The notes beneath the pieces were generated by a model, which was not told the origin of the DNA, ran no database searches, and was given only the letters and a program-made list of their open reading frames with translations. 52,489 bases of DNA from a virus, in the IMG/VR virus record IMGVR_UViG_3300018466_000002, positions 1 to 52,489 of that record, one strand, 5' to 3'. Positions 420 to 49,831 of this stretch are shown piece after piece (the stretch's first letter is position 1; each line of letters starts with the position of its first letter). A program made the position numbers and the translations under genes.

Positions 420-425
420 TACGAT
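420..425 (+). promoter_or_regulatory. -10 element TACGAT for the 433 gene (leaderless)
   Basis: TACGAT is followed by exactly 7 nt and the ATG at 433, the spacing seen at many other starts in this window. No SD site precedes that ATG. Confidence 0.55.
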
Positions 426-432
426 TGACGGC

Positions 433-1149
433 ATGGCAAGCGGCATCCTCTCCCTCTCTGGCGCCCTGAAGCTCCTCGCGCAGAACGCGAATGCGGCGAC
501 GGCCGAAGTTGAACGCACTGTCCGCGTCGTCGACTCCATCCCCGACTCTGACGCGGTGGACGGGATTCGCAAGGCGATCGACGAAACGGAGAAATCCGTG
601 CTCCGCCTCCTCGGCTTGCGTGCCGGTCAGACGATTTCGGGCGGGCGCACAACCGAGGCTGGAGCCGATGCTGATGCTGAGGAGGAAACACGGGACCGCC
701 GCAACCTGACAACGCATCTCGTGAACACCCGCTCCCTGCTCGACGAACTGCTCTCGTTCAGGGGTGACGTTCTGGCCAACGAGACATTTGACCCGAGCGG
801 ACAGAAAACCGGCTCCGTCACGTACGCAGCGGCCGTGCAATGGATGCTGGACTACATCAAGGGGTTGGAGCAGAACGAGCGCGCGTTTCGCGATCCGACA
901 CGGCACCGTCCAACTTCAGCGGGCGGGCTCGAAAACCTCGCCAACATCTTTGAGCGCTTTTTCGGCACTCGGTTCGGACGGCTTGAGGACCTTGCGCGCG
1001 AGATGATGAAGCGCACGAAGGAAGCGCAGAAGCAAACGCTCAAGAACGTGAAGACTTCCACATCCGGCACGCTCGGAAAGCCTCAACAGAAGTCGTGCGG
1101 TGGGGAGTCGTCGCTGTCTATCCTGTTGCAGTCGGGCGGGCTCAGGTGA
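433..1149 (+). CDS. Hypothetical tail-associated protein, 238 aa
   Basis: The gene follows the tape measure directly, with a 23-nt gap holding a -10-like TACGAT but no SD site. The 238-residue product is charged and largely helical, with an Asp/Glu-rich stretch near residues 75-85 and a Lys-rich C-terminal third. I recognise no domain. Its place between tape measure and tail-tip genes suggests a structural or assembly role in the tail, which is inference only. Confidence 0.75.
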   Translation: MASGILSLSGALKLLAQNANAATAEVERTVRVVDSIPDSDAVDGIRKAIDETEKSVLRLLGLRAGQTISGGRTTEAGADADAEEETRDRRNLTTHLVNTRSLLDELLSFRGDVLANETFDPSGQKTGSVTYAAAVQWMLDYIKGLEQNERAFRDPTRHRPTSAGGLENLANIFERFFGTRFGRLEDLAREMMKRTKEAQKQTLKNVKTSTSGTLGKPQQKSCGGESSLSILLQSGGLR

Positions 1150-1233
1150 GTCGGCGCACCCATCGCCGTTTCGGCGCCGCGTTCACTGCGGGCTTCCGTG
1201 GGCGACTCTTGCGGCTATGCTCACCGCCGTCCG

Positions 1234-1548
1234 TCATCCCCATGTCGTGTACGTCCACGCCTCACGATAGCCGAGCGCTTTAGCAGCACGGCACATCGCT
1301 CCGTACAGCGCGGAACAGGCATTCTCACACCCGTCAGACGCTACGCGTGAAATCACAATGCGCCCAGTCCCCTGCCATTCCTGCGCGGGGTTCCCGGCCA
1401 CAGCAACACCGCGCACGGCGCCCGCTTCGTCGGCGACTGCCGCAGCGAATAGCCCGCCTTGAATGTAGGGCAACTTGCGATGCCATTCCGACACGAACTT
1501 GCGCGCTGCCTTCACTGTGCACGGAACGATCGCCAACCTGCTCTGCAT
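1234..1548 (-). CDS. XF1762-family protein, apparently shortened
   Basis: The 104-residue product matches the phage XF1762 family, which I associate with an acetyltransferase-like fold: the N-terminal RLAIVPCTVKAARKFV segment, the W-H pair, the central GVAVAGNPA and the ASDGCENACSALYGAM helix. Family members normally run about 30-40 residues past the TYT motif, whereas this one stops at TYTTWG, so the C-terminus is probably lost. The ATG at 1548 is chosen because TACAAT lies 7 nt upstream; an in-frame ATG three codons earlier overlaps that -10. Divergent from the 1590 gene. Confidence 0.7.
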   Translation of the reverse strand: MQSRLAIVPCTVKAARKFVSEWHRKLPYIQGGLFAAAVADEAGAVRGVAVAGNPAQEWQGTGRIVISRVASDGCENACSALYGAMCRAAKALGYREAWTYTTWG

Positions 1549-1555
1549 GCGACGC

Positions 1556-1561
1556 ATTGTA
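1556..1561 (-). promoter_or_regulatory. Extended -10 TGnTACAAT, leaderless promoter
   Basis: On the minus strand TGATACAAT is followed by GCGTCGC and the ATG at 1548-1546. The core ATGCG-T-CGCAT is a perfect inverted repeat reaching into the start codon. Confidence 0.7.
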
Positions 1562-1589
1562 TCACGTTGCGTCGTGCGATGATAGCCCC

Positions 1590-2303
1590 ATGCCGCGCCT
1601 CATCGAACAGGGCGACCCCGGAACCGACCGACCCATTCTCCTCGACGGGGTGGAACTGTCCGTACTCCCCGCTGATCTCGACTCCCCGCCCGAACCGGTG
1701 AGCGACTATCTCGACCGGCTGAACGGGCGGGCGTCTGAGCACCAGCGCCGGCCCTCGTTCTACGGCGCGCCCTCGCACACCGACCGCTACCCGTTCACGT
1801 TCGCGTACGACCAGATCAGAGGGCCAGACCGGATCATCATGGAGACCATCCGCGTGCGCGGCGGCACGCATCTCCTCACCGTCTGGCGCATGGTCCCGGT
1901 CATCTGGCAGTGTCAGGCGGGCATCTCGCGGCACTACCTGCCGAGGCGTCCGGCCGCTCACCTGTACGACGGCCTGCTGATCGGCGGGGATGCTGGCGCA
2001 ACGGTCGTGAACACCGAGCACTTTCCCATTGACGCGACGTTGAACGGGGCGGCGCTGGCAGTGACGTACGCCGAGGGACCGACGCTCGCCGATCCGGGGG
2101 AGGGCGGCGTGGTGGTCGCGCGAGAGGCCGACGTGTCAGGCGAGGCAGCGGGCTACGTGGGCATCCGCGTCGGCGGCACCCTTCAGACCGGGGACGAGTT
2201 GATGCTGTGGGGATGCTGGACTCACGAGGTTAGTTTGCGCGCGCCGGGGCTCGTGATGCGCGGGCAGTCTGAGAGTCACGCTTACGTGTTCGTGGAGGTG
2301 TGA
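1590..2303 (+). CDS. Hypothetical tail protein, 237 aa
   Basis: The 237-residue, beta-rich product lies between the tape-measure end and the large hub-like protein at 2902, so a tail-tip role is likely from position. I recognise no family motif. The ATG at 1590 sits at the plus-strand side of a divergent promoter cassette (GCGATGATA 5 nt upstream). The last 22 bp overlap the 3' end of the opposing gene 2282-2860. Confidence 0.75.
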   Translation: MPRLIEQGDPGTDRPILLDGVELSVLPADLDSPPEPVSDYLDRLNGRASEHQRRPSFYGAPSHTDRYPFTFAYDQIRGPDRIIMETIRVRGGTHLLTVWRMVPVIWQCQAGISRHYLPRRPAAHLYDGLLIGGDAGATVVNTEHFPIDATLNGAALAVTYAEGPTLADPGEGGVVVAREADVSGEAAGYVGIRVGGTLQTGDELMLWGCWTHEVSLRAPGLVMRGQSESHAYVFVEV

Positions 2304-2860
2304 TACCCCGCGATGAGGGTCGATGCCCACCCTCGCAACTCGTCAGCGTTCACGAGGATCTCGTCAGCGCACTTCGCCATCAACTCCGGTTCTACGCGAT
2401 CAAGGCGCGCTGGAACGTGGCACCCGTCGAGATCACCGCACGCGCCGCAAGGTCTGTGGCGATAGAGGGTGTGACCGAACAGACGCACGGCATCATCAGC
2501 ATCAGGAAGCGGAACGCCGTGAGGAAATAGCACAGCAGTCCGCTTACCAGCGCCGACACTCCACCCCAACTCAAGGTGCGCGGAACTTCCGCACGGAAGG
2601 ACGAGCAGGCACACATCCGCAGCGCGCAGGGCGTCCATGTCTCGTCGGAATCCTTCCTCGGCCACATCATGCCGAAGCGCGGTACGGTACGCGTCAGGGC
2701 GCCACGCCTGCCACTGCGGGTCCACGTCAGACCACGCGAAGCCGCGCACGCCCGGCTCCGGTTCGCGAAAGTCGTATACGTCGTGACCTAACTCGCGCAG
2801 GAGTTCCACCACGCCGATCTGCCAAGGGTTCCGCCACGAAGAAGCTACGTAGATTCGCAT
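2282..2860 (-). CDS. Nucleoside 2-deoxyribosyltransferase-like protein, 192 aa
   Basis: The protein begins MRIYVASSWRNP, a typical start of phage deoxyribosyltransferase-like proteins, and has the later signature MDALRAADVCLLVLPCG followed by SAHLELGW, where the Glu matches the catalytic nucleophile. Such enzymes exchange bases on deoxynucleosides or hydrolyse nucleotides, a salvage or DNA-modification role. Residues near 150 hold a small C-x2-C-x4-C cluster. The start at 2860 lies 7 nt after TACAAT. It is a single-gene minus-strand insertion between plus-strand tail genes and overlaps the 1590 gene tail-to-tail by 22 bp. Confidence 0.8.
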   Translation of the reverse strand: MRIYVASSWRNPWQIGVVELLRELGHDVYDFREPEPGVRGFAWSDVDPQWQAWRPDAYRTALRHDVAEEGFRRDMDALRAADVCLLVLPCGSSAHLELGWSVGAGKRTAVLFPHGVPLPDADDAVRLFGHTLYRHRPCGACGDLDGCHVPARLDRVEPELMAKCADEILVNADELRGWASTLIAGYHTSTNT

Positions 2861-2867
2861 GCGACGC

Positions 2868-2873
2868 ATTGTA
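2868..2873 (-). promoter_or_regulatory. Extended -10 TACAAT, leaderless promoter
   Basis: Minus strand TGTTACAAT, GCGTCGC, then ATG at 2860. TACAATGCGTCGCATG is identical to the sites at 1546-1561 and 38866-38881. Confidence 0.75.
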
Positions 2874-2901
2874 ACACACGCCATCATGCGAAGATACTCC
2901 C

Positions 2902-5007
2902 GTGACGATCCTCGCCGAACTCTCCGGCAACCTCACCGTGACGGCAGACGACTCCCCGTCCGTGCTCGGTCATGTGGAGGTCACGGACGCGGGTACCTTC
3001 TGGTTTGTCCTCGACGTTGATGACCGCGCGTCCGTCGCCTTCGCCCAGCGATACCAACCTCTCGGCGTCGGCATCACCATCAACGGCGTGCCCGTTCCTG
3101 ATCGCGAGATAGGCAATGTGTTGACCATCACCGAATCGCGGGACAGCTACGGGGACCGGCTGCAGTTCCAGCTCATCGGCGAGCGGTGGTCTCCGTTTGC
3201 CCGCCGCATCCTCAGCAGCAACGCGCATGTCGTCGTCACCTTCGTGATCGGGCACGGTGCGACCGAGTTCCGCAAGCAAGTATTCGATGGCTACGTGGCC
3301 GCGCACACGTACGACGCGCAGCCGCCTGCCGCGAACGTGACGTGCCTCGACGCCGCTGCACTCCACGCCGAGAAGCGGGCGAAGACTTGGATGCTTCCGG
3401 CGAACAGCGGACGATCGCGCCTGTCGCTCGGCATGGAACTCCTCGCGCTCGTCGCCATCCCGACCGGCTACATCGACCTTGGAGGCGACGGCGGAATCGT
3501 GAACAAGCCTCTGGCCCCCGGTGATCAGCCCGTGGTCGATTTCATCCGCGACATGTGGGGCATCCTCGGCGCGGAAGTCGGATTCGAAAATGGACTCTTC
3601 TGCGCACGGCGGTATTCGTCCTCGCTGCCGCCCGTCATGGAACTGAACGCGGGGAACATCCTCGCGCCGCCAGCCGCACCCGCGCCCACCATCACCAGCC
3701 CCGACGTGCTCGCCCCCAACGTGATCGGCGTCGTGACGAGTTCCTACGTGCAGGAGGACATTGGCGGGTTGCGGACCGTGGAAACGTCCGTCGTCACCAT
3801 CGGTCCCTACGCGCCCGTGAGCGCCACCGGCACATGGCAGACGACGGTGCGCACAATCTCCGAGGTCATCACGCGCACAACGTACCTTGGCACGCTGGAC
3901 ATCCTCACCGAGCAGGAGGAGTACGGATGGTACGCTGTGAAGGCCGCGCCCGAGATGTTCCTCCCATCCGAAGACCCGCCCGGCTACGAGATCGTCCCGA
4001 GCAACTTCACCACGTTCACCTATCCGGACGGTTCCACCCGCGGCGATTCCGTCGAGCAGTACCGACGCCTGAGCAAGACGGTTGTCCGGAAGGCCGTCGA
4101 CGACGACTACAACGTGATTGCCGTCCGCGAAGAGAAGTACAGCTTCCGGTTCCAGCGCAAAGCTATCTGGATCGTGGTCGACGGCGAGAACGAGCTTTCC
4201 GCAGGCCAGACCTACCTCACCGACGAAGGGGAAGGAGTCCTCGGCGGGCGCGAAGTCATGGGCCTGCTCGAAGGCGACAGCGGCAACCGGATGGAGGGCG
4301 GGCTCGCCGCGTCCTCGCTGTACCGGCGCCCAGACGAACTGATCGAGACGACGTACGAACTGAACGCGGACGGCACGATCAAAAGCGAGACGGTCACTGA
4401 GCACTTCTACGACATCGGCCAGCCGCGGCGAAAGGCGGACGGCGCGCACGGGTACGGGTTCGACTCCTTCACGTACGCCTCGCGCGCGCAGGAGGCGAAC
4501 GACGCGCTTGCGGATCAGTGGGGCGGGCTGCGCACAACCATCCGCCGTTACCGCGTCATCAACGAAGACAAGTACGAGATGACGGAGCGGACAACGGGGA
4601 GCAATGAACCCGCGCGGACCAAGACGCAGACCCTCGTTGGCGCCCCGCCCCGCCCCGAGCGCGCTGATCCCGAGGTGACGACGCAGGAGATTCGGGAGTA
4701 CGTCGTCGACTCGGAGCGCGTAGCCCTGTCGGGCCAAGAGATCGAGCGCGTGGAGCACAATGAGTTCATCGAGACGCGAGAGCAAGCCGCCGCATTCGCC
4801 CGCATCCTTGCCCGTCGCGCATCTGCTCGCGTCCTGACCTGCTCCACGCCCATTGAGTCCATCGTCCACAAGTTCCGGATGGTGCGCGTGAACCTGCCGG
4901 GGACTTCGATCCACGGGCTGCACTTCTACGTCACGGACATCGAACGGCACGCGGCCACGTTTCAGCAGGAGATCACGGCGGAGTATTACTCGCCGGAGTT
5001 GGGGTGA
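2902..5007 (+). CDS. Large tail-tip / baseplate hub-like protein, 701 aa
   Basis: A 701-residue beta-rich protein. Its C-terminal segment (KFRMVRVNLPG, then LHFYVTDIERH and ITAEYYSPE) resembles the end of hub proteins that form a ring under the tail tube. The N-terminal 100 residues (GHVEVTDAGTFWF, GVGITINGVPVPD) also suit a structural beta domain. Position after the tape measure supports a central tail-tip role. The GTG at 2902 is used, preceded by GCGAAGATACTCCC, a sequence repeated before the 5279 gene. The 3' end overlaps the opposing gene by 22 bp. Confidence 0.75.
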   Translation: MTILAELSGNLTVTADDSPSVLGHVEVTDAGTFWFVLDVDDRASVAFAQRYQPLGVGITINGVPVPDREIGNVLTITESRDSYGDRLQFQLIGERWSPFARRILSSNAHVVVTFVIGHGATEFRKQVFDGYVAAHTYDAQPPAANVTCLDAAALHAEKRAKTWMLPANSGRSRLSLGMELLALVAIPTGYIDLGGDGGIVNKPLAPGDQPVVDFIRDMWGILGAEVGFENGLFCARRYSSSLPPVMELNAGNILAPPAAPAPTITSPDVLAPNVIGVVTSSYVQEDIGGLRTVETSVVTIGPYAPVSATGTWQTTVRTISEVITRTTYLGTLDILTEQEEYGWYAVKAAPEMFLPSEDPPGYEIVPSNFTTFTYPDGSTRGDSVEQYRRLSKTVVRKAVDDDYNVIAVREEKYSFRFQRKAIWIVVDGENELSAGQTYLTDEGEGVLGGREVMGLLEGDSGNRMEGGLAASSLYRRPDELIETTYELNADGTIKSETVTEHFYDIGQPRRKADGAHGYGFDSFTYASRAQEANDALADQWGGLRTTIRRYRVINEDKYEMTERTTGSNEPARTKTQTLVGAPPRPERADPEVTTQEIREYVVDSERVALSGQEIERVEHNEFIETREQAAAFARILARRASARVLTCSTPIESIVHKFRMVRVNLPGTSIHGLHFYVTDIERHAATFQQEITAEYYSPELG

Positions 5008-5237
5008 CGATCCGCGACGATGTTCTCCAGCTTCCCCGCGACTCTGGAGATTTGATCGTGAAGGCGCCGAAGACTGTTCGCGGTTGCGGACTCCGCAGTC
5101 GACCCGTACGCCAACTCGGAGAAAGGTCCCCACGCGTATTCAGCTAGCCATTCCGTCGTCGGCGTAACCTGCATCGTGCTGCGGTAGCGACGGATCAGCG
5201 TCGCATGCTTCTGCAGTTTGGCCATGTCTACTTGCAT
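4986..5237 (-). CDS. Hypothetical protein, 83 aa
   Basis: A short basic, helical protein (MQVDMAKLQKHATLIRRYRS at the N-terminus) that I do not recognise. The ATG at 5237 follows TACAAT by 7 nt on the minus strand. Like its neighbours at 1234 and 2282 it stands alone between two plus-strand tail genes and overlaps the upstream tail gene tail-to-tail by 22 bp, so it behaves as an independently expressed moron-like gene. Confidence 0.65.
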   Translation of the reverse strand: MQVDMAKLQKHATLIRRYRSTMQVTPTTEWLAEYAWGPFSELAYGSTAESATANSLRRLHDQISRVAGKLENIVADRHPNSGE

Positions 5238-5244
5238 GCGACGT

Positions 5245-5250
5245 ATTGTA
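5245..5250 (-). promoter_or_regulatory. Extended -10 TACAAT, leaderless promoter
   Basis: Minus strand TGTTACAAT, then ACGTCGC and the ATG at 5237; the plus-strand side holds GCGAAGATACTCCC and the GTG at 5279. Confidence 0.7.
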
Positions 5251-5278
5251 ACACATCCACCCATGCGAAGATACTCCC

Positions 5279-6784
5279 GTGCCAAACGCCACCCGCGATT
5301 ACCTCGACCATCATGCCCGCCGCACCGCCGACACCATCACGGGCCGGATCATCGAACGGCAGTCGAACGGCGTGTACGTGTACGAGGACATCGCCTCGGG
5401 CGCCAGTCGCTACGCCACGCCGAACACGAACGATGAATACGCGATCGGTTCCCGCGTGCGCATTGACCGGGTGAGCGCGGGGCGAAACGTGATCGGCGCG
5501 CAGGATGTCATCACCGGACGGGCGCCGAAAGAAGAGCGCGGGCTGAGCGGCACAACTCCGAGCGTTGACCGGAACGAGGTCGGGCGCGCGTTCATCACGA
5601 GCGTGGATCCGGACCCGCTCATTCTTACAGCGGGCGGGGCGTCGGGTGAGCAGGTCATCACCGGCGGCGGGTTCACTTCGGCTGCCGAATACTTCGCGCG
5701 CGGGGAAGCGGATGACCCGACCGTGACGGACGCGGACGAGCCGGAGGTGACGCCCACGCAGGTTGTGATGACGATCTCGGCGGATGCGGCGTCCGCGCTC
5801 GGGGAGTTCGGCGTCACTGTGAACGGTGCGGTTGCGAGTAACGCCATCCGCATCGTCGCATCCCGCCGCGTCACCGCGCTCTGGTACTGGCGCGCGGACG
5901 GTTCGGAACTGCTGAGCGTGAACAAGGCGACCGGGGCGATCATCGGGACGTGGGCGAATCCGGGGGGCGTGCCCGACTACCGGCCCCTGCTCGCGGACGC
6001 GACGTACGTGTACGCGTTCACCACTACGCACCTTCTGCGCATCGGCATCGTGTCGGGAGTGTCGGAGACGTTCGTGCTCGCGGAGGAGCCGAATTTCCTG
6101 AATTGCGCCGCAGTCGTGGCGGGCGTCCTGTACTACGGCGAGGCCGATGCGGTCTACCCCGATACGCGCCCGCGCCGACTCATTCGCTTCGATCCGTCCG
6201 ACAGTTCGACAACATACGTCCTGCTCGGCTCAGCAGATTCCGGATATCGCTACGTGGTGTCTGCGATCGGGGCCGACATCTTCGGGGTCATCACGGATGT
6301 TCAGGTTGCGCCAAACGTGGCCGTTCCTTTCGCGCTCAACACGGTGACCGAGTCCGCGACCTTCGCGGGAGTTGCAGCGGAGGTGTTGGCGGACCCGGTC
6401 GGCGTGACGGCGACTGACATCGTTTTCGTCGGCGGTGCGGTCGCGGGCTACTCCGCCTATAGGTACGACCGCCCGTCGCTGGACTTCGAAGCGAGCGCGG
6501 CCCTCGCGATAGATGCGTGGTACGGCTCATTCGCCAATCCGCATCTCCTCGTTACAGAGAACGACGAACCCGGCGCGACGCTGCACCTTGTCAACGCGGA
6601 GACGTTCGCGGTCCAGTCGGCGGCGCTGCCGGCCATCACGCAAGCCGGTGGAGTCGCCGCGAATGCCGAGGTGGCCTACGTCGTGAGCGAGAATGAGGAC
6701 GTGGTGCAGATCGTCAACCGCTCTACGCTGGCAGTGACTTCGATCACGGCTCCGGCTGCGGTGGGGGTTGTGATGCTGGCGTGA
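5279..6784 (+). CDS. Tail protein with propeller-like repeats, 501 aa
   Basis: The 501-residue product has an N-terminal region of about 80 residues with an OB-like look, a segment near 100-200 resembling an IPT/TIG or Ig-like beta sandwich (LILTAGGASGEQVITGGGF), and a long C-terminal part with recurring hydrophobic/Gly beta-strand units (ALWYWRADGSELL, YVYAFTTTHLLRIG, VLYYGEADAVYPD) that suggest a beta-propeller. Such proteins often form tail-tip appendages that touch the cell surface. The GTG start at 5279 follows the repeated GCGAAGATACTCCC. Function is inferred from fold impressions and position. Confidence 0.7.
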   Translation: MPNATRDYLDHHARRTADTITGRIIERQSNGVYVYEDIASGASRYATPNTNDEYAIGSRVRIDRVSAGRNVIGAQDVITGRAPKEERGLSGTTPSVDRNEVGRAFITSVDPDPLILTAGGASGEQVITGGGFTSAAEYFARGEADDPTVTDADEPEVTPTQVVMTISADAASALGEFGVTVNGAVASNAIRIVASRRVTALWYWRADGSELLSVNKATGAIIGTWANPGGVPDYRPLLADATYVYAFTTTHLLRIGIVSGVSETFVLAEEPNFLNCAAVVAGVLYYGEADAVYPDTRPRRLIRFDPSDSSTTYVLLGSADSGYRYVVSAIGADIFGVITDVQVAPNVAVPFALNTVTESATFAGVAAEVLADPVGVTATDIVFVGGAVAGYSAYRYDRPSLDFEASAALAIDAWYGSFANPHLLVTENDEPGATLHLVNAETFAVQSAALPAITQAGGVAANAEVAYVVSENEDVVQIVNRSTLAVTSITAPAAVGVVMLA

Positions 6785-6929: not shown

Positions 6930-7174
6930 ACGATCTCCGCACCCTTCGGAACATCCAGCGGCGCCGCCGCATGGAACACGGTGTCTGAACTCATGAGCAA
7001 CACCGGCCTGCCGCTTACCCGGACGCCGAGCAACCGTGGCACATCCTGATTCATCAACTCCGCGTCGATGTCCACGTGATGGAGCCCGTGGTTTTCATCA
7101 CGCCAGACGATGGTGAACTTGAAGCTGTCACCCGCTCCACTCAGAACTACCTGAAGTTGTCGCTTGTCCGTCAT
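6926..7174 (-). CDS. Hypothetical protein, 82 aa
   Basis: A compact beta-rich protein (QLQVVLSGAGDSFKFTIVWR) without recognised domain. ATG at 7174 overlaps the stop of the upstream gene (ATGA) and its own stop overlaps the next start in the same way, so translation is probably coupled along this three-gene minus-strand unit. I assign no function. Confidence 0.65.
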   Translation of the reverse strand: MTDKRQLQVVLSGAGDSFKFTIVWRDENHGLHHVDIDAELMNQDVPRLLGVRVSGRPVLLMSSDTVFHAAAPLDVPKGAEIV

Positions 7175-7563
7175 GCGATCCCCAGTTCCTTCGCGATCTC
7201 GGGGTGGAGCATCGCCATCTCGTATCGCGTGAAGCAATGGGCCAAGTTGCTGGCGCGATCCGGGTTCGGAATAGGGCATTCAATGCAGGACACGTACAGG
7301 TCATGCATTGAGCCTTGCTTGGGCATGATGTGCTGCTGCCGCAGGTAGTGCCCGCACTTCGGGCAGTCGGGACCGAGGATGGCGCGGGCGCGAACCAGTT
7401 CCGCCTGCATCTCGCGTGACGCGACGGTGAAGCCGACGATGGAACGCGCCGGATGCAGGCTCCCGTCACCCTTCTGCACGGCCATCCATGCGTCATTCGC
7501 GGCGTTGCATTCGGGGCAACCACAGTAACTCGGGTGAGGGAGGTCATCGTTCGTGGTAGTCAA
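7171..7563 (-). CDS. Putative zinc-binding protein with leaderless TTG start, 130 aa
   Basis: The product has Cys pairs CGCPEC near residue 12, CPKC near 68 and CIEC near 95, suggesting zinc ribbons. The only in-frame start near the promoter is TTG at 7563, 8 nt after TACAAT, so this looks like a leaderless TTG start; a later ATG would remove the first Cys pair. It heads a three-gene coupled unit reading against the tail genes. No specific function recognised. Confidence 0.6.
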   Translation of the reverse strand: MTTTNDDLPHPSYCGCPECNAANDAWMAVQKGDGSLHPARSIVGFTVASREMQAELVRARAILGPDCPKCGHYLRQQHIMPKQGSMHDLYVSCIECPIPNPDRASNLAHCFTRYEMAMLHPEIAKELGIA

Positions 7564-7571
7564 TGCAACGC

Positions 7572-7577
7572 ATTGTA
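7572..7577 (-). promoter_or_regulatory. Extended -10 TACAAT for the 7171 gene
   Basis: Minus strand TGATACAATGCGTTGCA followed by TTG; the opposite side holds GCGAAGATACGTCC and the ATG at 7606. Confidence 0.65.
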
Positions 7578-7605
7578 TCACAACGTTCCGTGCGAAGATA
7601 CGTCC

Positions 7606-9204
7606 ATGCCGCCGCACCTGCAACTGCTCACCACCATCGGCGCCGTTCCCGATCCGATCTTCATCGCCATCAGCGGCGGAGAAGAGAGCGCGATAACCAC
7701 TCTCGAAATCTGGAACGATAAATTGGATGCGTTCGTGGACACGACCACGTCCGTGAATCAGTGGCTGAAAGTCCTCACGTCTTCGATCATCGGATACGCG
7801 CCGGTTACGGGCACGCCGATCTACGGCCCGTATGTTTCGGACGGTGAGCCGATCACCGAAGAGCTATGGTCGCGCGTTCGAATTACGCACACCCTGACGG
7901 CGGCGGGTGCCTCAACGGAAGGTGCGACGGACACGCTGCCGGTCGGAACCAACTCCGAGTTCCCGCTGCCAGACCTTGCCCCGCAGACCGGCGTCCGCAT
8001 CGAGTTTCAGGTCATTGCGCCCGCAGGCCAGACCGCGAACGCGACGCGGATCAGGCCGCAGGTCGTCGGCAATCAGGCTTCCTCCCCGCTCGCCGCACTG
8101 GTCGGACTCGCCAGCGGCAGCGGCGTCGTTCCCGCTGATCGCGTGGCTGGTCTGCGCGCCATCCTGCGCGGGTCCGTGGTCACTGCCGACGACTCGGAAA
8201 CCGTCGCCGTGACCGGCGGGTTGATGGTGCACGACGGGACGGAGCGCGCGTTTGCGGCAGAGGATGTGACCTTCACCCTTGCCGATGGTGCGGCCGTCAA
8301 CCTCGGCGCCGACGAGGCGTACAACGTCACCCTTTCGCGCACGTCCGCAGGCGTGCTCACGGTGACGAAGGGACCGAAGACGGAGGCCGTACTGTTCCCC
8401 GCCGTGCCAGCCGGCAACGTGCTCGTGTCTCGGCTCACCGTCGAATCAGCGGACGGGATCGCGGTCACTGTCGCCCCGTCGTCGGTCGATCAATCCGAAG
8501 TCACGTACGCGGAGCTGTCCGTGCGCGCTGGCGCGGGGTTGACGGCGATCGTTTCCCCTGGTGATGCGATCTCCGATTCGAGCATCCGGCCGCGCGCATC
8601 GCACGCGACCTCCGTCGCGCTCACCGCGGCGAGCGTGAATCGGATTTGGTTGCTGCCCACGGGCGGAAAGAGCGCCACCGTGACGGACGTGTTGCCGACG
8701 CCCGGCGCGGCGCTGCTGGCTCGCGCGACGACGGACGGGGCGAACGTACTTTCCGTCGAAGACACGCGTCCACTCGTGCATCGTGCTGTGACCTACTGGA
8801 CCATGCGTCTCGCCTACGTGGGCGTCATCTCCGAACTCGACGAGCCGTCCGAGCTGATCGCGTGGGACGTTCTGGACGAGGAGGGCGAACTCGAAGACGT
8901 GGCGCTCGACCTGTCGGCGCTGGACGCGACGTGGACGGCAGGGACGCTGCGCGTCGACGTGCGGGCCATCGCGCCGGGCGTGGCCGTGGACAGCGCGGGC
9001 GCCTCGATCTACACGGACGATGCGCAACGGCCCGCCCTCGCATGGGACGCAGCATCCCTCCGCGTCACGAGCGCGGACCATCAGACGCGGCGGTTCGCGC
9101 GTGGTACTCGGTTCGTGCTCGACGTGCTGGACACCGTTGCGGCGCCCGCGACGGAACCCGCGCAGGAGATTCGGGTGGCGTTGAGGTTCCGGCGATACAC
9201 GTAG
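7606..9204 (+). CDS. Tail-tip or receptor-binding protein candidate, 532 aa
   Basis: The 532-residue product is built from beta-strand-rich segments with many Thr/Val/Ala and Gly, as in fibre or tip proteins. N-terminal residues 1-120 look globular (IFIAISGGEESAITTLEIW), the middle resembles repeated Ig or fibre modules and the C-terminal 120 residues form another beta domain ending LRFRRYT. It is the last large gene of the tail cluster, where adhesins usually lie. ATG at 7606 follows the repeated GCGAAGATAC segment of the divergent cassette. Confidence 0.7.
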   Translation: MPPHLQLLTTIGAVPDPIFIAISGGEESAITTLEIWNDKLDAFVDTTTSVNQWLKVLTSSIIGYAPVTGTPIYGPYVSDGEPITEELWSRVRITHTLTAAGASTEGATDTLPVGTNSEFPLPDLAPQTGVRIEFQVIAPAGQTANATRIRPQVVGNQASSPLAALVGLASGSGVVPADRVAGLRAILRGSVVTADDSETVAVTGGLMVHDGTERAFAAEDVTFTLADGAAVNLGADEAYNVTLSRTSAGVLTVTKGPKTEAVLFPAVPAGNVLVSRLTVESADGIAVTVAPSSVDQSEVTYAELSVRAGAGLTAIVSPGDAISDSSIRPRASHATSVALTAASVNRIWLLPTGGKSATVTDVLPTPGAALLARATTDGANVLSVEDTRPLVHRAVTYWTMRLAYVGVISELDEPSELIAWDVLDEEGELEDVALDLSALDATWTAGTLRVDVRAIAPGVAVDSAGASIYTDDAQRPALAWDAASLRVTSADHQTRRFARGTRFVLDVLDTVAAPATEPAQEIRVALRFRRYT

Positions 9205-9209
9205 TGTGA

Positions 9210-9215
9210 TACACT
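9210..9215 (+). promoter_or_regulatory. Extended -10 TGnTACACT
   Basis: TGATACACTGCGTTGCATAG: at the expected start position there is ATA, not ATG, so this promoter should give a short leader with GGAGG before the ATG at 9249. Confidence 0.6.
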
Positions 9216-9248
9216 GCGTTGCATAGCAGTCGCACACTGGAGGATGGC

Positions 9249-10444: not shown

Positions 10445-10786
10445 ATGCCCGACCGCCGCGAAACGCCCGACCCTCCAGCCGCGGGTGCTGAGACTGGCCC
10501 CGAGCGGGCCATCGCCCCGACCACGACAACGCAGCAGGATCTCACGACGAAAGGTCAGCGGCGCGTAAATCTGATTTGGGAAATCACGCAGGCCATCATC
10601 GCCATCATCGTCACTGTCTCCACGATGGCGGTGGCGGTTCGCCGTTCGTGGAGCATCGACGAGTACCCGGTCATCCTGAGTTCCGCCTTCTTCCTCATCA
10701 TCGGGTTCTACTTCAGCCGCACCAATCACACGGCCATCGGCGGGACCGGGACGAAGCCGACCATGCCGCCGTACCAAGGCCGCTAG
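10445..10786 (+). CDS. Holin candidate, 113 aa with two membrane segments
   Basis: A polar N-terminal third is followed by two hydrophobic segments (ITQAIIAIIVTVSTMAVAV and VILSSAFFLIIGFYF) separated by a short charged loop, then a polar tail. Size and topology fit class II holins, which permeabilise the cytoplasmic membrane so the endolysin can reach the wall. The endolysin itself is about 21 kb away at 31442, so the lysis genes are split. The call rests on topology alone. Confidence 0.5.
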   Translation: MPDRRETPDPPAAGAETGPERAIAPTTTTQQDLTTKGQRRVNLIWEITQAIIAIIVTVSTMAVAVRRSWSIDEYPVILSSAFFLIIGFYFSRTNHTAIGGTGTKPTMPPYQGR

Positions 10787-11139
10787 CCGGCACCGCCGCC
10801 GCGTCGCCGCTCCTGCATTGCCAGCAGCAGCTCGTACCGTTCGTCGTTCTTCGCGTTGATCTCTTCTTGGCGCCCCTTGTCCATGAACGACATCGCCCGC
10901 GCAGTGACAACGTTGTGCGCCACCTTGGTTGCAACCGCGTTCATCTGCTCTTCGGCGTCGCGCCGGATCGTTCGGCGCAGGTTCAGGTAGCCGATTCCGA
11001 TCCCTAGCCACGTAGCCGCCAGCCCGATCATCGCGCCGGGGGTGATGCCGCCGACGCCGCTGGCCGGCGCCACGCCCTGCGCCACGAGCAGCGGCGCCGC
11101 CGTGCCGACCGTGAGCAGAACGACTGCCAGCACCTTCAT
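10783..11139 (-). CDS. Minus-strand membrane protein, 118 aa
   Basis: The N-terminus (MKVLAVVLLTVGTAAPLLVA) looks like a signal peptide or anchor and a second hydrophobic stretch follows near residues 35-52. The C-terminal half is charged and helical, and may be a coiled coil, ending in an Arg/Gly run. TACTCT lies 6 nt before the ATG at 11139, so the transcript is probably leaderless. The stop overlaps the stop of the convergent holin candidate by 4 bp. An antiholin or spanin role is possible but unsupported. Confidence 0.6.
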   Translation of the reverse strand: MKVLAVVLLTVGTAAPLLVAQGVAPASGVGGITPGAMIGLAATWLGIGIGYLNLRRTIRRDAEEQMNAVATKVAHNVVTARAMSFMDKGRQEEINAKNDERYELLLAMQERRRGGGAG

Positions 11140-11145
11140 CGAGAG

Positions 11146-11151
11146 AGAGTA
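11146..11151 (-). promoter_or_regulatory. -10 element TACTCT, leaderless promoter
   Basis: Minus strand TACTCT, six bases, then ATG at 11139. Confidence 0.5.
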
Positions 11152-38865: not shown

Positions 38866-38871
38866 TACAAT
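38866..38871 (+). promoter_or_regulatory. Extended -10 TACAAT, leaderless promoter
   Basis: TGATACAATGCGTCGCATG, identical in its core to the minus-strand sites at 1546 and 2858; TGA is the preceding stop. Confidence 0.75.
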
Positions 38872-38878
38872 GCGTCGC

Positions 38879-39181
38879 ATGATGAATGTTCAACCAGAGC
38901 CTGAAAGCTTCGTGCTGAAGGTCACCAACGACAACATGTCCGAGAGCGGCATCCTGACGGGCGACCTTGTCGTAGCGTCTCGCCTCGGCACAGAGACGGC
39001 AGACGGGGGCGCGCTCGTAATTGTTCGTCACGGGATCGGCGCCGGCGTATCGCTCGCTCGCCTGTGGCGGTGGCCCGCCGGGCAGATGCGCGTGGAGTTG
39101 TCCCCGACTGCCTGCCTCACGATGCGCGCCGACGAAGTCACGGTTGAAGGGCGCGTGGTCGGCCTGATGCGTAGGTACTGA
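38879..39181 (+). CDS. Stand-alone LexA/S24-like domain lacking the catalytic dyad, 100 aa
   Basis: The sequence follows the S24 peptidase fold: FVLKVTNDNMSESGILTGDL, VVASR, GGALVIVRHG, SLARLWRWPAGQMRVELSP and VTVEGRVVGLMRRY. In active LexA or UmuD proteins the nucleophile lies in GDSM and a Lys in the KRL strand; here these are NDNM (Asn19) and SLARL (Ala60), so autocleavage seems impossible. There is no HTH domain. It could still dimerise with host LexA-like repressors. Leaderless promoter between two head genes. Confidence 0.75.
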   Translation: MMNVQPEPESFVLKVTNDNMSESGILTGDLVVASRLGTETADGGALVIVRHGIGAGVSLARLWRWPAGQMRVELSPTACLTMRADEVTVEGRVVGLMRRY

Positions 39182-39218: not shown

Positions 39219-39224
39219 GATACT
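39219..39224 (+). promoter_or_regulatory. -10 element GATACT, leaderless
   Basis: GATACT, six bases, ATG at 39231. Confidence 0.4.
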
Positions 39225-39230
39225 CGCCGC

Positions 39231-39530
39231 ATGGACGCACAGGCGCTTGAGCAACTGCGCATTGACAACCGTGCCGCAATCGCGGCCGCGCGCGATCATC
39301 ACGCCGCGCAGGCAGCGAAGTTAGCCGCGGCGCTAGAAGACATTGACCGGCGAGACGCGCTGCGGCGCGAACGCATGCGCCACCCAGCGATGGTGGGCCG
39401 CTACCCGCGCCGATGGACTCGGGACGAGGTGAGCGAGAAGTACAACGCAGAGCAGGTTCACCATCCGAATCTGATCTTCATTCCTGCGGACGTGGCGGAT
39501 CTCGAAGTGACGGAGCTGCGCACTGCATGA
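39231..39530 (+). CDS. Hypothetical protein, 99 aa
   Basis: Ala/Asp/Arg-rich helix in the first half (DNRAAIAAARDHHAAQAAKL), then a short beta part. Its stop overlaps the protease start (ATGA). Likely a head-assembly accessory by position. Confidence 0.65.
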   Translation: MDAQALEQLRIDNRAAIAAARDHHAAQAAKLAAALEDIDRRDALRRERMRHPAMVGRYPRRWTRDEVSEKYNAEQVHHPNLIFIPADVADLEVTELRTA

Positions 39531-42616: not shown

Positions 42617-42649
42617 CGCCTCCGTGCTACCATGTGTAACACGGAGGCG
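42617..42649 (+). promoter_or_regulatory. 10-bp inverted repeat enclosing a -10 and masking an SD
   Basis: CGCCTCCGTG (42617-42626) and CACGGAGGCG (42640-42649) are perfectly complementary. The loop holds TACCAT (42628-42633) and the right arm holds GGAGG for the ATG at 42657. Read-through mRNA would hide the SD; mRNA starting within the loop would not. Confidence 0.65.
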
Positions 42650-43138: not shown

Positions 43139-43319
43139 GTTCCTTTGCCCGAACTGCGAGGGTCGCGGGTGCGCGGCGTGTCTCGGCGATGCGGTTGCTG
43201 CGGACTCGGGCCGCCCGCACACGCGCGAAGAACGCCTCGCCATCGAAGCGCAGATGCCGTCCACGGTCCGCCACAAGCACGGCGCCTACGCTGGCCTGTT
43301 CTGCCCGCAGTGCGTATGA
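43131..43319 (+). CDS. Small zinc-finger protein, 62 aa
   Basis: CPNCEGRGCAAC and the terminal CPQC form a zinc-ribbon pattern. GTG start overlaps the preceding gene by 8 bp; its stop lies inside the -10 of the next gene. Confidence 0.65.
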   Translation: MIEFLCPNCEGRGCAACLGDAVAADSGRPHTREERLAIEAQMPSTVRHKHGAYAGLFCPQCV

Positions 43320-43320
43320 T
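43315..43320 (+). promoter_or_regulatory. -10 element TATGAT, leaderless promoter
   Basis: TATGAT, six bases, GTG at 43327; the TGA stop of the 43131 gene is within this hexamer. Confidence 0.5.
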
Positions 43321-43326
43321 TCACTC

Positions 43327-43824
43327 GTGCCGTACACCACATGGGAGGAAGTCGCCGAAGCCGTGCAGGGTGAGCAGCGGTTGAAGGACATGCTGCTCCC
43401 TCGCGTGGAGACCGCAGAGGAACACCCCTACTTCGATCAGCAGCTCGCCATCGCGTCCCGCCGTGCTGATGTCGCGCTGGAGGTTGCCGGGTTTACCACC
43501 CCGCTTGCATCCGTCACCGACCCCCTTCTGAAGAACGCCATCATCGGCTATCTGATCGGCATCCTGACTCAGTCGAGCTCCAGCCGCGAGCCTTTCGAGC
43601 AAGCCCTCTTTGCGGCAGCCGAGGCCTACTTTGCGAAGATGGAGAAGGGCGGCGTCACGGTCCTCGGCGTCGTGGAGGATGAGGACTCGACCGAAGCCGC
43701 GCTCACCATGGGCGGGAACTTTGAACGCGAGTCCGTCTTTGACTTCACGCAGGCGGACGCGGAAATCCTCGGCGTGTTCGCATCGCTCGGGCGCGGATCA
43801 TTCCGTGGTAGCTGGCGACGGTAG
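43327..43824 (+). CDS. Head-tail connector, DUF1320/Mu gp36-like, 165 aa
   Basis: Pattern of the gp36 family: short N-terminal helix, then DQQLAIASRRADVALEVAGF, LLKNAIIGYLIGILTQ and a C-terminal EAYFAKMEKG. These proteins join head and tail after packaging. Position between capsid and gpG-like genes supports it. Confidence 0.7.
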   Translation: MPYTTWEEVAEAVQGEQRLKDMLLPRVETAEEHPYFDQQLAIASRRADVALEVAGFTTPLASVTDPLLKNAIIGYLIGILTQSSSSREPFEQALFAAAEAYFAKMEKGGVTVLGVVEDEDSTEAALTMGGNFERESVFDFTQADAEILGVFASLGRGSFRGSWRR

Positions 43825-43829
43825 TGTGA

Positions 43830-43835
43830 TACGAT
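43830..43835 (+). promoter_or_regulatory. Extended -10 TACGAT, leaderless promoter
   Basis: TGATACGATGCGCCGCATG; ATG 43843 is 7 nt after the -10. Confidence 0.7.
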
Positions 43836-43842
43836 GCGCCGC

Positions 43843-44124
43843 ATGAATTGCAACGCGCGCATTGGCCCTCTCTCGTGTGTTGGCGAATACGGGCACCCGT
43901 CGTACTGGTCTCCGCTGGCGCCGAATGGTCGCGACTACGCAGCGGGCATCCCGACCACGCACGTCACGCGAATCGGTTGGACGTTCGTGACGTGGAACGA
44001 CACGGCAGCCCTTCTGTTGACGGCCCTGCATGCCGAGATGGCCCGCACGATTCTCGGCGCCGATCTCACCGGCGGCGAGCAGCGCGGATCTTTGGCGCAA
44101 GCGAAGAACGGGTCGGGGTGGTGA
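43843..44124 (+). CDS. Hypothetical protein, 93 aa
   Basis: Leaderless start. A globular protein with two early Cys (NCNARIGPLSC) and a helical C-terminal half; no family seen. Confidence 0.65.
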   Translation: MNCNARIGPLSCVGEYGHPSYWSPLAPNGRDYAAGIPTTHVTRIGWTFVTWNDTAALLLTALHAEMARTILGADLTGGEQRGSLAQAKNGSGW

Positions 44125-44483: not shown

Positions 44484-44599
44484 GGATTCCCACGGCGAGA
44501 CATTGCGACTGTCACCATTGCCACACGCAATGCGCGTGCGCCGAGTGTGTTGCGGCCAAACGCCGCTGCCGGACCTGTCAACTAGGCGGACCGGTGTAG
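44480..44599 (+). CDS. Cys/His-rich mini zinc protein, 39 aa
   Basis: The 39-residue product (RIPTARHCDCHHCHTQCACA, then ECVAAKRRCRTCQ) has eight Cys in about 25 residues, enough for two small zinc sites. GTGA overlap with the preceding gene supports translation. Confidence 0.6.
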   Translation: MRIPTARHCDCHHCHTQCACAECVAAKRRCRTCQLGGPV

Positions 44600-44602
44600 C
44601 AT
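44597..44602 (+). promoter_or_regulatory. -10 element TAGCAT, leaderless promoter
   Basis: TGTAGCAT, six bases, GTG at 44609. Confidence 0.55.
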
Positions 44603-44608
44603 CTCCGC

Positions 44609-45142
44609 GTGGCCACGTTCACGCTGCAATACCAACTCGGCGAAGTCTCCCATCTGCTCACGATGGTTGAGACGCGCGCCGACGATCCCTCGGACCTGAT
44701 GGCGGATCACCTCCTGCTGCTGATCCGGTCGACGCAACTCAACTTTGAGGAGCAGGGGCGCCCAGTTCCATTCGCTGAACTCGCACCCTCAACAGAACGG
44801 CGCCGGTTCGCCAAGGGCATGAAGGGCAAGGGAGCCAAAGCGCTCGGCTCTCTCGCCGTGCTCGGGTCCACTCAGATCCTGCGCGACACCGGCCTACTCA
44901 TGCAGTCGCTCGGAGCGGGAGCGAGCGGACCATTCGAAGCGGCGGACGGATTCGGCGAGTCGGACAAGTTCACGGCGGTGCTCGGGACGAACAGGCCGGG
45001 CGCCGATGCGCTGCAAGTGGGATACGCGCCGAACAATCTCCCCTCCCGCGAGTACGTGCTCTTTCAGGAGCAGGACGAGACGGACCTTCTGCGAATGACC
45101 GAGGATTGGATGATGGGGACGGGGCCGTACGCGGAAGTGTGA
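44609..45142 (+). CDS. Virion morphogenesis protein, Mu gpG/tail-completion-like, 177 aa
   Basis: The sequence QILRDTGLLMQSLGAG is the common DTG-x-L segment of gpG-like proteins. N-terminal helices and a C-terminal NNLPSREYVLF part also fit. They act at the head-tail interface. GTG start, leaderless. Its stop codon is part of the promoter that drives the structured RNA. Confidence 0.7.
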   Translation: MATFTLQYQLGEVSHLLTMVETRADDPSDLMADHLLLLIRSTQLNFEEQGRPVPFAELAPSTERRRFAKGMKGKGAKALGSLAVLGSTQILRDTGLLMQSLGAGASGPFEAADGFGESDKFTAVLGTNRPGADALQVGYAPNNLPSREYVLFQEQDETDLLRMTEDWMMGTGPYAEV

Positions 45143-45148
45143 TACAAT
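45143..45148 (+). promoter_or_regulatory. Extended -10 TACAAT driving the structured RNA
   Basis: TGATACAATGCGCGACACG: the motif is complete, but ACG stands at the start position and no coding frame follows. GTGATA and TATCAC flank the site as an inverted repeat. Confidence 0.65.
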
Positions 45149-45784
45149 GCGCGACACGTTATCACAGCGAGGGTGCGGAACACGTAACCTGCCCGTGCAG
45201 CCCGTGACCACAACACCCTGTCACCATGCCAAGGCGCGTATACACATTAGTGCGACGCCGAACCGGAAAGGGGCCGGTAGCCAGCGCGGAGCGAGTCGGT
45301 TGCGCAGTGAGGCACAGAACCTGCCGAGCAGTCCGAGGGAAACGCGAAGGACGGGCCAGCAACGGGCACTGCTGGCCGAGCAGTTCGTAACGAAATGACC
45401 CGCCGTACACGGACGAGAGAGTTGGACGCGGCGGGTCAGGGTGAACGGTTCCGCGAGGGGCCGTTCACTGGTTTCTGTGAACCCTGACCGGCTATCGGGC
45501 AACCGAAACGCCGAGCGTGATAGTGAGGCCACGCTGGAAAGGGAGTCGGCGCCTCCATCGCGAGCCGACTCCCTCTTTGACAACTGATTCGGGAACGTGC
45601 GGCGACAGCGCACGCGGCGCCCGGTGATGAGCAGCCGGCGGTTTTGTGAAGACGTTTTCCGTCGTCAAGCCCTCAAACCTCAGGCCACCGAAAGCGGGGA
45701 GACGCTGCGAAAATAATCCCCACTGACACGGGCGGACTCGTTCCGCCCCGTACGCGCCCGGATCAGTTGTGAGGAGAGTGTTCT

Positions 45785-45873
45785 GGACGAGCCTCCGGTT
45801 GAGGTGGCGGGCACGCGACCCGCGCAAAGACAAAGCGGCAAGATGTACGGCGGTTCGACTCCGCCCCTCGTCC
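45785..45873 (+). other. tRNA-like domain within the structured RNA
   Basis: GGACGAG (45785-45791) pairs with CTCGTCC (45867-45873). Between them are a 5-bp stem with 7-nt loop (GCGGG/CCCGC, 45807-45823; loop CACGCGA lacks U33) and a perfect T-arm GGCGG-TTCGACT-CCGCC at 45849-45865. No normal D-arm, so not a standard tRNA. Confidence 0.5.
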
Positions 45874-45874
45874 C

Positions 45875-45896
45875 CGTTCGTTGAAAACAGGTTCAG
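45875..45896 (+). repeat. Imperfect repeat of the 24-nt stem arm, copy 1
   Basis: CGTTCGTTGAAAACAGGTTC resembles 46062-46083 with one substitution and one missing G, and could compete for the same 3' arm. Confidence 0.7.
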
Positions 45897-45909
45897 ACCA
45901 GCGGAGGTC

Positions 45910-45933
45910 GCGGGTTCGAATCCCGCCCCGTCG
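45910..45933 (+). other. Second canonical T-arm with acceptor-like 3' strand
   Basis: GCGGG-TTCGAAT-CCCGC is a textbook T stem-loop, followed by CCCGTCG where an acceptor 3' strand would lie; no exact 5' partner is nearby. Confidence 0.55.
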
Positions 45934-45962
45934 TGCGAGGCCCACATGCCGGGCTAATCCTC

Positions 45963-45986
45963 GACGAGGTAGCGCAGGGGTAGCGC
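45963..45986 (+). other. 5' tRNA half (acceptor strand, T8-A9, D-arm)
   Basis: GACGAGG, TA, then GCGC-AGGGGTA-GCGC. The first seven bases pair perfectly with CCTCGTC at 45866-45872, which follows the upstream T-arm, i.e. in permuted order. Confidence 0.5.
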
Positions 45987-46061
45987 GCCGAACCACGGCC
46001 CGCAAGGGAGCGTGGAGTGCACCGGACGGCGGAGTGGGCATGTCGCTCCGTCCGTTCCGCT

Positions 46062-46085
46062 CGTTCGTTCAAAACAGGGTTCAGG
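46062..46085 (+). repeat. 24-nt stem arm, copy 2
   Basis: Pairs with 46175-46198 over all 24 positions (22 Watson-Crick, 2 U-G). Confidence 0.8.
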
Positions 46086-46201
46086 TAAGCGCGCCGGTGA
46101 AGGCGGCAGTGCGGTCCGCAGTCGGCTCCGGTGAGGACGACACGGACTGGAAACCGTCAGAAGCCGGATGAACCCCTGAACCCTGTTTTGAGCGAGCGCG
46201 G

Positions 46202-46207
46202 TACACT
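46202..46207 (+). promoter_or_regulatory. -10 element TACACT before the 46217 gene
   Basis: TACACT 9 nt before GTG 46217, directly after the terminal RNA stem. Confidence 0.45.
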
Positions 46208-46216
46208 TCTCCCCGC

Positions 46217-48778: not shown

Positions 48779-48816
48779 TACCGTTCTCTCGCCTAGCCGT
48801 CTTCCTCTCCATCACG

Positions 48817-48850
48817 CAACGGCCCGCCGACTCGACCCGGCGGGCCGTTG
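48817..48850 (+). terminator. Strong hairpin, probable terminator
   Basis: A perfect 12-bp stem CAACGGCCCGCC/GGCGGGCCGTTG with a 10-nt loop follows the tube gene; the T-tract after it is weak. Confidence 0.65.
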
Positions 48851-48860
48851 TCGTCTGTGT

Positions 48861-48866
48861 TACAAT
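48861..48866 (+). promoter_or_regulatory. -10 element TACAAT before the 48876 gene
   Basis: TGTTACAATGCGTTGCACATG; 9 nt to the ATG at 48876. Confidence 0.55.
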
Positions 48867-48875
48867 GCGTTGCAC

Positions 48876-49220
48876 ATGAGCACACGCACACTCACCTACC
48901 TCGCCGTCCCCTACTCGCATGCCGATCCCGCGATCCGCGCAGCGAGGTTCAAGGCCGCGAACGCTGCGGCCGGTCTCTTGATGCAGGGCGGGGCTATCGT
49001 CTTCTCTCCCATCTCGCACACGCACCCGATCGCCGAAGAATGCGACCTCCCGAAAGGGTGGGAGTTCTGGCACGCGTTCGACCGCGCGTATCTGGCCTGC
49101 TCCAAGCGCGTTGTCGTCTTGTGCATCGAAGGTTGGCGCGAGAGCGTGGGTGTGAGTGCGGAAATCAAGATTGCCGAGGAGATGGGGGTGCCCGTCGAGT
49201 TCATGAGTGCGAACCCGTGA
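48876..49220 (+). CDS. DUF1937 protein, 114 aa
   Basis: Clear family signature: YLAVPYSHADPAIRAARFKA at the start, VFSPISHTHPIAEE, WEFWHAFDRAYLACSKRVVV and GVSAEIKIAEEMGVPV. The family has a nucleoside-deoxyribosyltransferase-like fold and unknown substrate. It lies with the methyltransferase between tube and tape-measure genes, where tail chaperones usually are. Confidence 0.82.
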   Translation: MSTRTLTYLAVPYSHADPAIRAARFKAANAAAGLLMQGGAIVFSPISHTHPIAEECDLPKGWEFWHAFDRAYLACSKRVVVLCIEGWRESVGVSAEIKIAEEMGVPVEFMSANP

Positions 49221-49831
49221 CGCACGATCCTCAGCCGTTCCTGTTCGCAGACTGCGAGCGCTCTCGCGCGTGGTTCCGCGCCATGGGCGTGCACTTCTCA
49301 AGCGCCACCGACGAATGGGCGACTCCTGCCGATGTCTTCGCGGCACTGCATGCGGAGTTTGGCTTCACGTTGGACGCCTGCGCGTCGGCGAAGAACGCGA
49401 AGTGCGAGCGCTTCTTCACGGCCGAGGACAACGGTCTAGCGCAGGAGTGGACAGGCCGCGTGTGGTGCAACCCGCCCTACGGCCGCGACATCACCGGCCG
49501 ATGGGTCGCGAAGGGATTCGCGAGCGCGAGCGCTTCCGCTGAGATGGTGGTGATGCTCATTCCTTCACGCACAGACGTGGCGTGGTGGCATGACTACGTG
49601 ATGAAAGCGCAGGAAGTCCGGTTCATTCGGGGCCGGTTGCGCTTCGGATCCGCTACGTCGGGCGCTCCCGTTCCCGAGCGCGATCGTCGTGTTCCGCGCC
49701 AACCCGTAGCGCACCCCTCCCGCGCTACACTGCCCCCGTGGCAGACCGGCAGGCCGTCCTCGAAATCCTCACTCGCCTCGTCGGCATGGACAAAGCCGCC
49801 GAGATCGCGGCCAAGTTCAACCTTGAACTGA
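49217..49831 (+). pseudogene. Phage Dam-type adenine methyltransferase with 3' frameshift
   Basis: DNA N6-adenine methyltransferase by SSATDEWATPADVFAALHAE, FTLDACASAKNAKCERFFT and the catalytic NPPYGRDITGRW. Up to GSATSGAP (about 49669) the frame is normal. One extra base near 49670 then shifts it; reading from 49671 in the other frame restores FPSAIVVFRANP and the stop at 49707-49709, just before the tape-measure promoter. The present frame instead runs on to 49831 inside the tape-measure gene. The catalytic site is intact, so activity may persist. GTGA overlap with DUF1937. Confidence 0.75.
49726..49731 (+). promoter_or_regulatory. -10 element TACACT, tape-measure promoter (leaderless)
   Basis: TACACT, six bases, GTG at 49738. 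Confidence 0.55.

Follow-up and report, generated by a model that had tools for sequence, protein, structure and literature searches.

Near-uniform predicted extended -10 promoters placed against start codons in a 52-kb viral record, with predicted leaderless mRNAs

About 23 copies of a single promoter-like motif, hereafter class A, were found in the record of an uncultured phage analysed here (the window, which is the whole stretch of 52,489 bases; 64% G+C). Judged from their sequence, these sites are quite probably real promoters of the host main sigma factor, of the extended -10 type without a -35 element, giving leaderless mRNAs mainly from accessory genes. The principle is known in some bacteria and their phages; so dense and uniform a set in one phage is unusual.

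Recognizable genes in the window included those for terminase, portal, minor head, major head and neck proteins, a DnaC loader, ERF, YqaJ, RusA, and an XRE repressor-like protein. The open reading frame (ORF) from 49738 leaves the contig end and is in frame at position 1 once a 5-base overlap (CGACG) is collapsed, and the joined ORF has 1,051 codons before one stop. Given the shared CGACG ends and this continuous long ORF (1-409, 49738-52489), the record may be a complete genome, and a circular or terminally redundant genome would fit the sequence. Searches of IMG/VR with the terminase, capsid, and portal found no close relatives. Most proteins were without a match in INPHARED, where only distant DnaC, deoxyribosyltransferase, DUF1937, and methyltransferase matches from mixed hosts were obtained. 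An Rfam search of the whole window at the gathering threshold returned nothing. In a DNA N6-adenine methyltransferase homologue (49217-49709), the C-terminal part usual for such proteins seems to continue in a different frame past about 49660; a small indel, either real or from assembly, may have disrupted the gene. An inverted repeat at 22365-22400 (ATCAGTTCA...TGAACTGAT), flanked by the XRE gene and the gene occupying the small-terminase position, is a possible operator or terminator.

The class A signal was defined by its distance to the start codon. When the distance from TAnnnT to the next ATG was counted on both strands, only 7 nt formed a peak (17 vs. 3.3 expected), and neighbouring spacings were at chance level. 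With TGn ahead of the hexamer (TGnTAnnnT), 13 occurrences lay exactly 7 nt before ATG on the two strands, against 0.2 expected and at most 2 in any of 100 shuffled controls. The sequence-only reading had proposed -10 boxes at a fixed distance from starts, which is borne out by this count, and its eleven example coordinates, from 2868 to 49726, were all correct as positions of -10 hexamers. Among 86 genes, TAnnnT preceded a plausible in-frame start at 6 nt in 10 cases and at 7 nt in 14, whereas the remaining spacings averaged 1.8 (Poisson P 2e-5 for 6 nt and 8e-9 for 7 nt). GTG at 6 nt, taken alone, was only weakly enriched (9 vs. 5 in shuffles). When as many as 3 mismatches were allowed, TGNTACANTGCGNNGCATG matched 22 sites vs. 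1.24 expected. A matrix trained on the 13 TGnTAnnnT-7-ATG sites, with the start codon left out, gave 20 sites at 14 bits or more vs. 0.35 expected from shuffles, and this is the count obtained without hand-picking. The weakest of the matrix sites (19035, 14.1 bits) and a few matches just below the threshold (40061 and 25439) lie within genes and are likely chance matches. The working set comprised 23 sites, a count that is partly selected because four sites, with starts at 14093, 25096, 31231, and 42641, were added by eye, several of the additions being made where ATG followed.

The consensus of class A is TGTGATACAATGCGTYGC followed by AYG, with no -35 element; the only -35-like hexamer was TTGACT at 34393, ahead of the site at 34412-34430. 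TGn preceded the -10 in 20 of the 23 sites. Invariant or nearly invariant positions were T-13, A-12, C-11, T-8, C-6, G-5, C-1, and A+1; CG at -6/-5 was present in 21 and 22 of the 23 sites, and 17 sites had G at -2. C-1 and A+1 were shared by all 23 sites, even by the six in which +1 is not the first base of ATG: ATT (7564), ATA (9223), ACG (14614, 42641, and 45156), and ACA (48874). The +1 position was outside the matrix, and its A, retained even without ATG, points to a rule of transcription start rather than to a translation signal. When class A was pooled with class B (described below), 35 of 36 sites had C at -1; among the other gene starts, 26 of 53 had it (P 4e-7). In this comparison, the matrix itself favoured C-1 for class A, and the gene starts were our own calls, made with a bonus for TAnnnT at 6-8 nt.

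At 15 of the 23 sites, an ORF of at least 62 codons begins on the +1 A. Two of these are on the reverse strand ahead of genes with assignable products. The site at 1546-1564 (-), TGATACAATGCGTCGC followed by ATG, precedes a Mom-like gene (1234-1548 (-); PHROG 1384, E 2.7e-14), and that at 2858-2876 (-) precedes a nucleoside deoxyribosyltransferase gene (2282-2860 (-); PHROG 12607, E 1.7e-49). Alignment with the latter family begins at residue 2 of the predicted leaderless product, which supports the start codon at 2860 (-), and the annotated starts of homologues lie 1-4 residues away. A third reverse-strand site (5235-5253 (-)) precedes the gene 4986-5237 (-). On the forward strand, class A sites lie directly before the genes 13020-13316 (site 13004-13022), 24793-24981 (24777-24795), 25386-26687 (25370-25388), 27774-28007 (27758-27776, directly past a terminator-like hairpin), 30823-31062 (30807-30825), 33289-33507 (33273-33291), 34428-34655 (34412-34430), and 43843-44124 (43827-43845). 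Three class A-like sites do so as well, at 14077-14095 (TACCCT, 7 nt; gene 14093-14518), 25080-25098 (AGATACTGT; gene 25096-25365), and 31215-31233 (gene 31231-31449). The site at 38863-38881 precedes the gene 38879-39181, whose product matches S24 weakly (E 1.2e-4, short of the curated cut-off). The usual serine position of this S24-like protein seems to be Asn (NDNM), and it may be an inactive repressor-like domain.

The remaining eight sites were followed by other arrangements. A start codon lies just past the +1 A at two of them: at 7562-7580 (-), TTG at +2 (within ATTG) opens a 130-codon ORF (7171-7563 (-)), and at 48858-48876, ATG at +3 opens a DUF1937 gene (48876-49220; E 6e-23). Three sites have short leaders with GGAGG: 9207-9225 (+1 at 9223, then ATG 9248), 14598-14616 (predicted transcript start ACGGAGG at 14614; ATG 14629), and the class A-like site 42625-42643 (ACGGAGG at 42641; ATG 42657). 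At 19919-19937 and at 37387-37405, the latter after the portal stop, the ATG on +1 (19935 and 37403) opens only 4 and 12 codons, respectively. A zinc-finger-like ORF (37389-37779) lies in a frame different from that of the class A ATG at the latter site, as would result from a different start or an indel. The site at 45140-45158 precedes about 1 kb without a predicted gene (45147-46216). This stretch folds somewhat better than shuffled sequence (z -2.4) and has two tRNA T-arm-like hairpins; a YrlA match in Rfam (31.8 bits against a cut-off of 69) was given no weight, since sub-cut-off matches were also obtained in E. coli and other controls. The presence of the class A motif before GGAGG leaders and a gene-free stretch indicates that it is not a ribosome signal.

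Several of the units follow closely on an upstream gene. At five class A sites, the TGA of that gene lies within TGATAC, with a 13-nt gap each (that of the terminase gene at 24777-24795, and of the preceding gene at 33273-33291), and at three sites TAG stands immediately before TGTGATAC, with an 18-nt gap each; these sites bear out the overlap of the -10 with the previous stop codon that had been noticed from the sequence. Terminator-like hairpins lie ahead of some units (27722, 31120, and 48816). Most other genes of the phage look Shine-Dalgarno (SD)-led, and since SD-led operons are retained, the phage is not leaderless throughout.

A second, looser group, class B, contained 13 starts, 7 of them GTG, with a -10-like box 6 nt ahead. 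C was present at -1 in 12 of the 13, compared with 26 of 53 other starts (P 0.005, with the gene calls used above). This group is less certain than class A, GTG at 6 nt numbering only 9 against 5 in shuffles; its boxes are heterogeneous and some, such as GAAGAT, fit the consensus poorly. Several structural genes are fronted by class B, among them those for the minor head protein (37825-38865; TAACAT and GTG, 37813-37827) and the tail completion/neck protein (44609-45142; TAGCAT and GTG, 44597-44611). The long ORF from 49738, continuing at 1-409 and tape-measure-like by length and position only, has TACACT and GTG (49726-49740). Further boxes precede ATG at 11137-11151 (-) (TACTCT; gene 10783-11139 (-)), 12994-13008 (-) (TAGCAT; gene 12769-12996 (-)), 31430-31444 (TAGACT; gene 31442-31849), and 39219-39233 (-10-like GATACT; gene 39231-39530), and GTG at 22001-22015 (-) (TATCAT; gene 21620-22003 (-)) and 43315-43329 (TATGAT; gene 43327-43824).

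The other four class B sites are each paired with a class A site on the opposite strand, the two starts being exactly 42 bp apart (1548/1590, 2860/2902, 5237/5279, and 7564/7606). Their class B members are 1575-1592 (TGC-GATGAT, 6 nt, ATG; gene 1590-2303), 2887-2904 (TGC-GAAGAT, 6 nt, GTG; gene 2902-5007), 5264-5281 (GTG; gene 5279-6784), and 7591-7608 (ATG; gene 7606-9204). The ends of these modules are similar and the middle is variable. The same 42-bp distance separates 11139 and 11181, a pair that differs from the modules in sequence and has an SD-led gene on the plus strand. Reading the class A -10 backwards as the class B -35 of the modules (TTGTAA, 15-nt spacing) gave a poor fit. Divergent promoters arising from DNA-sequence symmetry are a known type. 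The opposite -10s that overlap at 13003-13012, where the class A site before 13020 meets the class B box of the start at 12996, resemble that type, whereas in the four 42-bp modules the two -10s are separate and unequal.

Leaderless promoters throughout the genome, as claimed by the sequence-only reading, are thus well supported by the sequence. Its estimate of about 25 leaderless starts is corrected to about 15 in class A and up to 13 in class B, and does not extend to the three class A sites with SD leaders, the one before the gene-free stretch, and the two opening tiny ORFs. The sites had also been called a regulon; this is supported for class A in the sense of a sharply conserved common promoter only, not in that of a common regulator.

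In the reading we favour, class A would be read by RNA polymerase carrying the host main sigma factor (sigma-A), recognizing the extended -10 (TGnTACAnT) in the absence of a -35. Transcription, like the timing of these units, we infer from the sequence; it would start on the A after C, eight bases past the -10. As ATG begins with this A at most sites, the mRNA would be leaderless, and it would be translated by ribosomes accepting a 5'-terminal AUG. Translation of leaderless mRNA at such an AUG by 70S ribosomes has been reviewed (PMC9031893). The units would mostly be single small accessory genes lying between structural genes (the Mom-like modifier, nucleoside deoxyribosyltransferases, the S24-like protein), in the manner of morons. 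In the four divergent pairs, 42 bp would leave two polymerases hardly any room to bind together at the back-to-back promoters. Some observations speak against this reading: the conservation of CG at -6/-5 exceeds what an ordinary sigma-70 -10 needs, two class A sites open only the 4- and 12-codon ORFs, and the class B boxes are heterogeneous.

Parts of this arrangement have counterparts in known systems. Morons are single genes that lie among the structural genes of a phage and have a promoter and a terminator to themselves. The units described here are likewise small single genes between structural genes, many with a predicted promoter of their own and a few with terminator-like hairpins; they differ from morons in that one near-identical promoter, often containing the upstream stop codon, is common to them. 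Transcripts of the Thermus phage P23-45 are often leaderless. Its middle and late genes have extended -10 promoters, which are less affected by gp39, a blocker of -10/-35 promoters (PMC7403470). Extended -10 promoters ahead of phage genes, predicted in the present phage, are common to both, but the first 50 kb of P23-45 has no TGnTAnnnT-7-ATG peak. In D. radiodurans, a TANNNT -10, mostly TACACT, located 6-7 bp before ORFs was shown to be the promoter of leaderless genes, and expression was disturbed when the box was placed too close (PMC12340547). In Deinococcus-Thermus, a -10 lies next to the ORF in about a third of genes (PMC12340547; PMC3160421). TANNNT 6-7 nt before the start codon is above chance in the phage as well, although the main class of the phage is at 7 nt with TGn and a conserved nCGynGC, and D. 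deserti plasmid DNA has its peak at 6 nt and is devoid of the class A pattern.

Class A could instead be the normal leaderless style of the host, from Deinococcota, Actinomycetota, Verrucomicrobiota, or another lineage, which we regard as possible but somewhat unlikely. In Deinococcus-Thermus and Actinobacteria, -10s of the leaderless type are frequent (PMC3160421). TGnTAnnnT-ATG at 7 nt was in excess in one Verrucomicrobiota genome (16 vs. 4), TGNTACANTNCGNNGCATG had 18 matches in 288 Verrucomicrobiota genomes and 0 in the reversed control, and phiC31 gave a hint of 7 nt (5 vs. 2). Against this, TGNTACANT-N7-ATG occurred 11 times in the 52 kb of the phage, 0 times in the tested Deinococcus, Thermus, Gemmatirosa, Granulicella, and Rhodococcus replicons, and no more than 9 times in any of 39 Verrucomicrobiota and 40 Pseudomonadota genomes, the chromosomes compared being from groups other than Actinomycetota and Deinococcota. 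A phage density above that of every replicon and genome sampled argues for a promoter set at the level of the phage, not simply a host style. Deinococcus and Thermus plasmid DNA peaked at 6 nt, not 7. In the 39 Verrucomicrobiota genomes, the 7-nt count barely exceeded the 10-nt control (102 vs. 82), which weakened the case for Verrucomicrobiota as the host by motif, and one scan of a genome collection for the host by motif gave 12 scattered single matches, near the roughly 7 estimated by chance. The sequence-only reading had taken the dense leaderless promoters as a hint of a host favouring leaderless mRNA; such a host is possible, while the absence of the pattern from the Deinococcus, Thermus, and Rhodococcus replicons and the density of the phage do not favour it.

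The unlikely alternative that class A also serves as an operator was considered, in which a regulator encoded by the phage, such as the XRE protein (22062-22319), would bind the partly palindromic TGCGTYGCA (-8 to +1) and control all units, comparable to the stoperators of some mycobacteriophages. The conserved CG at -6/-5 and G at -2 are in line with this, an HTH_3 repressor-type protein is present (E 1.7e-17), and ATGCGNCGCAT was found 10 times vs. 0.3 expected (palindromic sites counted on both strands). However, the palindrome is weak, with C at -3 in only 8 of 23 sites; 20 of the 31 TGCGnnGCA counted, some of them reverse readings of class A, had no preceding TAC -10 on the same strand; and no class A site was seen before the XRE gene itself. 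A stronger form, dedicated control, in which one factor on -8 to +1 switches about twenty leaderless units, appears doubtful; in that form, the 42-bp modules would toggle between an accessory and a structural gene, because both promoters could not be occupied at once.

It is improbable that class A is a spread repeat, that is, mobile promoter cassettes kept by recent copying and not by selection. The two recurrent junctions after structural genes (GTGA/TAC at 5 sites and TAG/TGTGATAC at 3) and the four near-identical divergent modules with 42-bp spacing would suit such copying, but in the aligned sites the likeness is confined to promoter positions, the flanks and module middles differ, and the downstream genes match different families. 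Least probable is recognition of class A by a diverged sigma factor or RNA polymerase that the phage itself encodes; this would account for the conservation from -16 to +1 and agrees with the long, uniform motif and with the occurrence of the full pattern once per contig in viral contigs (twice in one), whereas no sigma factor or RNA polymerase gene was found in the proteins scanned, among which many were without a family match so that diverged factors could be missed, and TGn and the -10 fit an ordinary sigma-A extended -10.

The density of class A suggests that selection has favoured either mRNAs lacking a 5' leader or a single common controller. If the reading as host sigma-A promoters of leaderless accessory genes is right, the phage would offer about 35 predicted start sites, a small natural collection that follows an unusually sharp rule, and studies of leaderless expression could use the uniform class A promoter and the 42-bp modules as simple parts. 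The set would also test the reach of leaderless translation and of -35-free promoters in the accessory gene programme of a phage.
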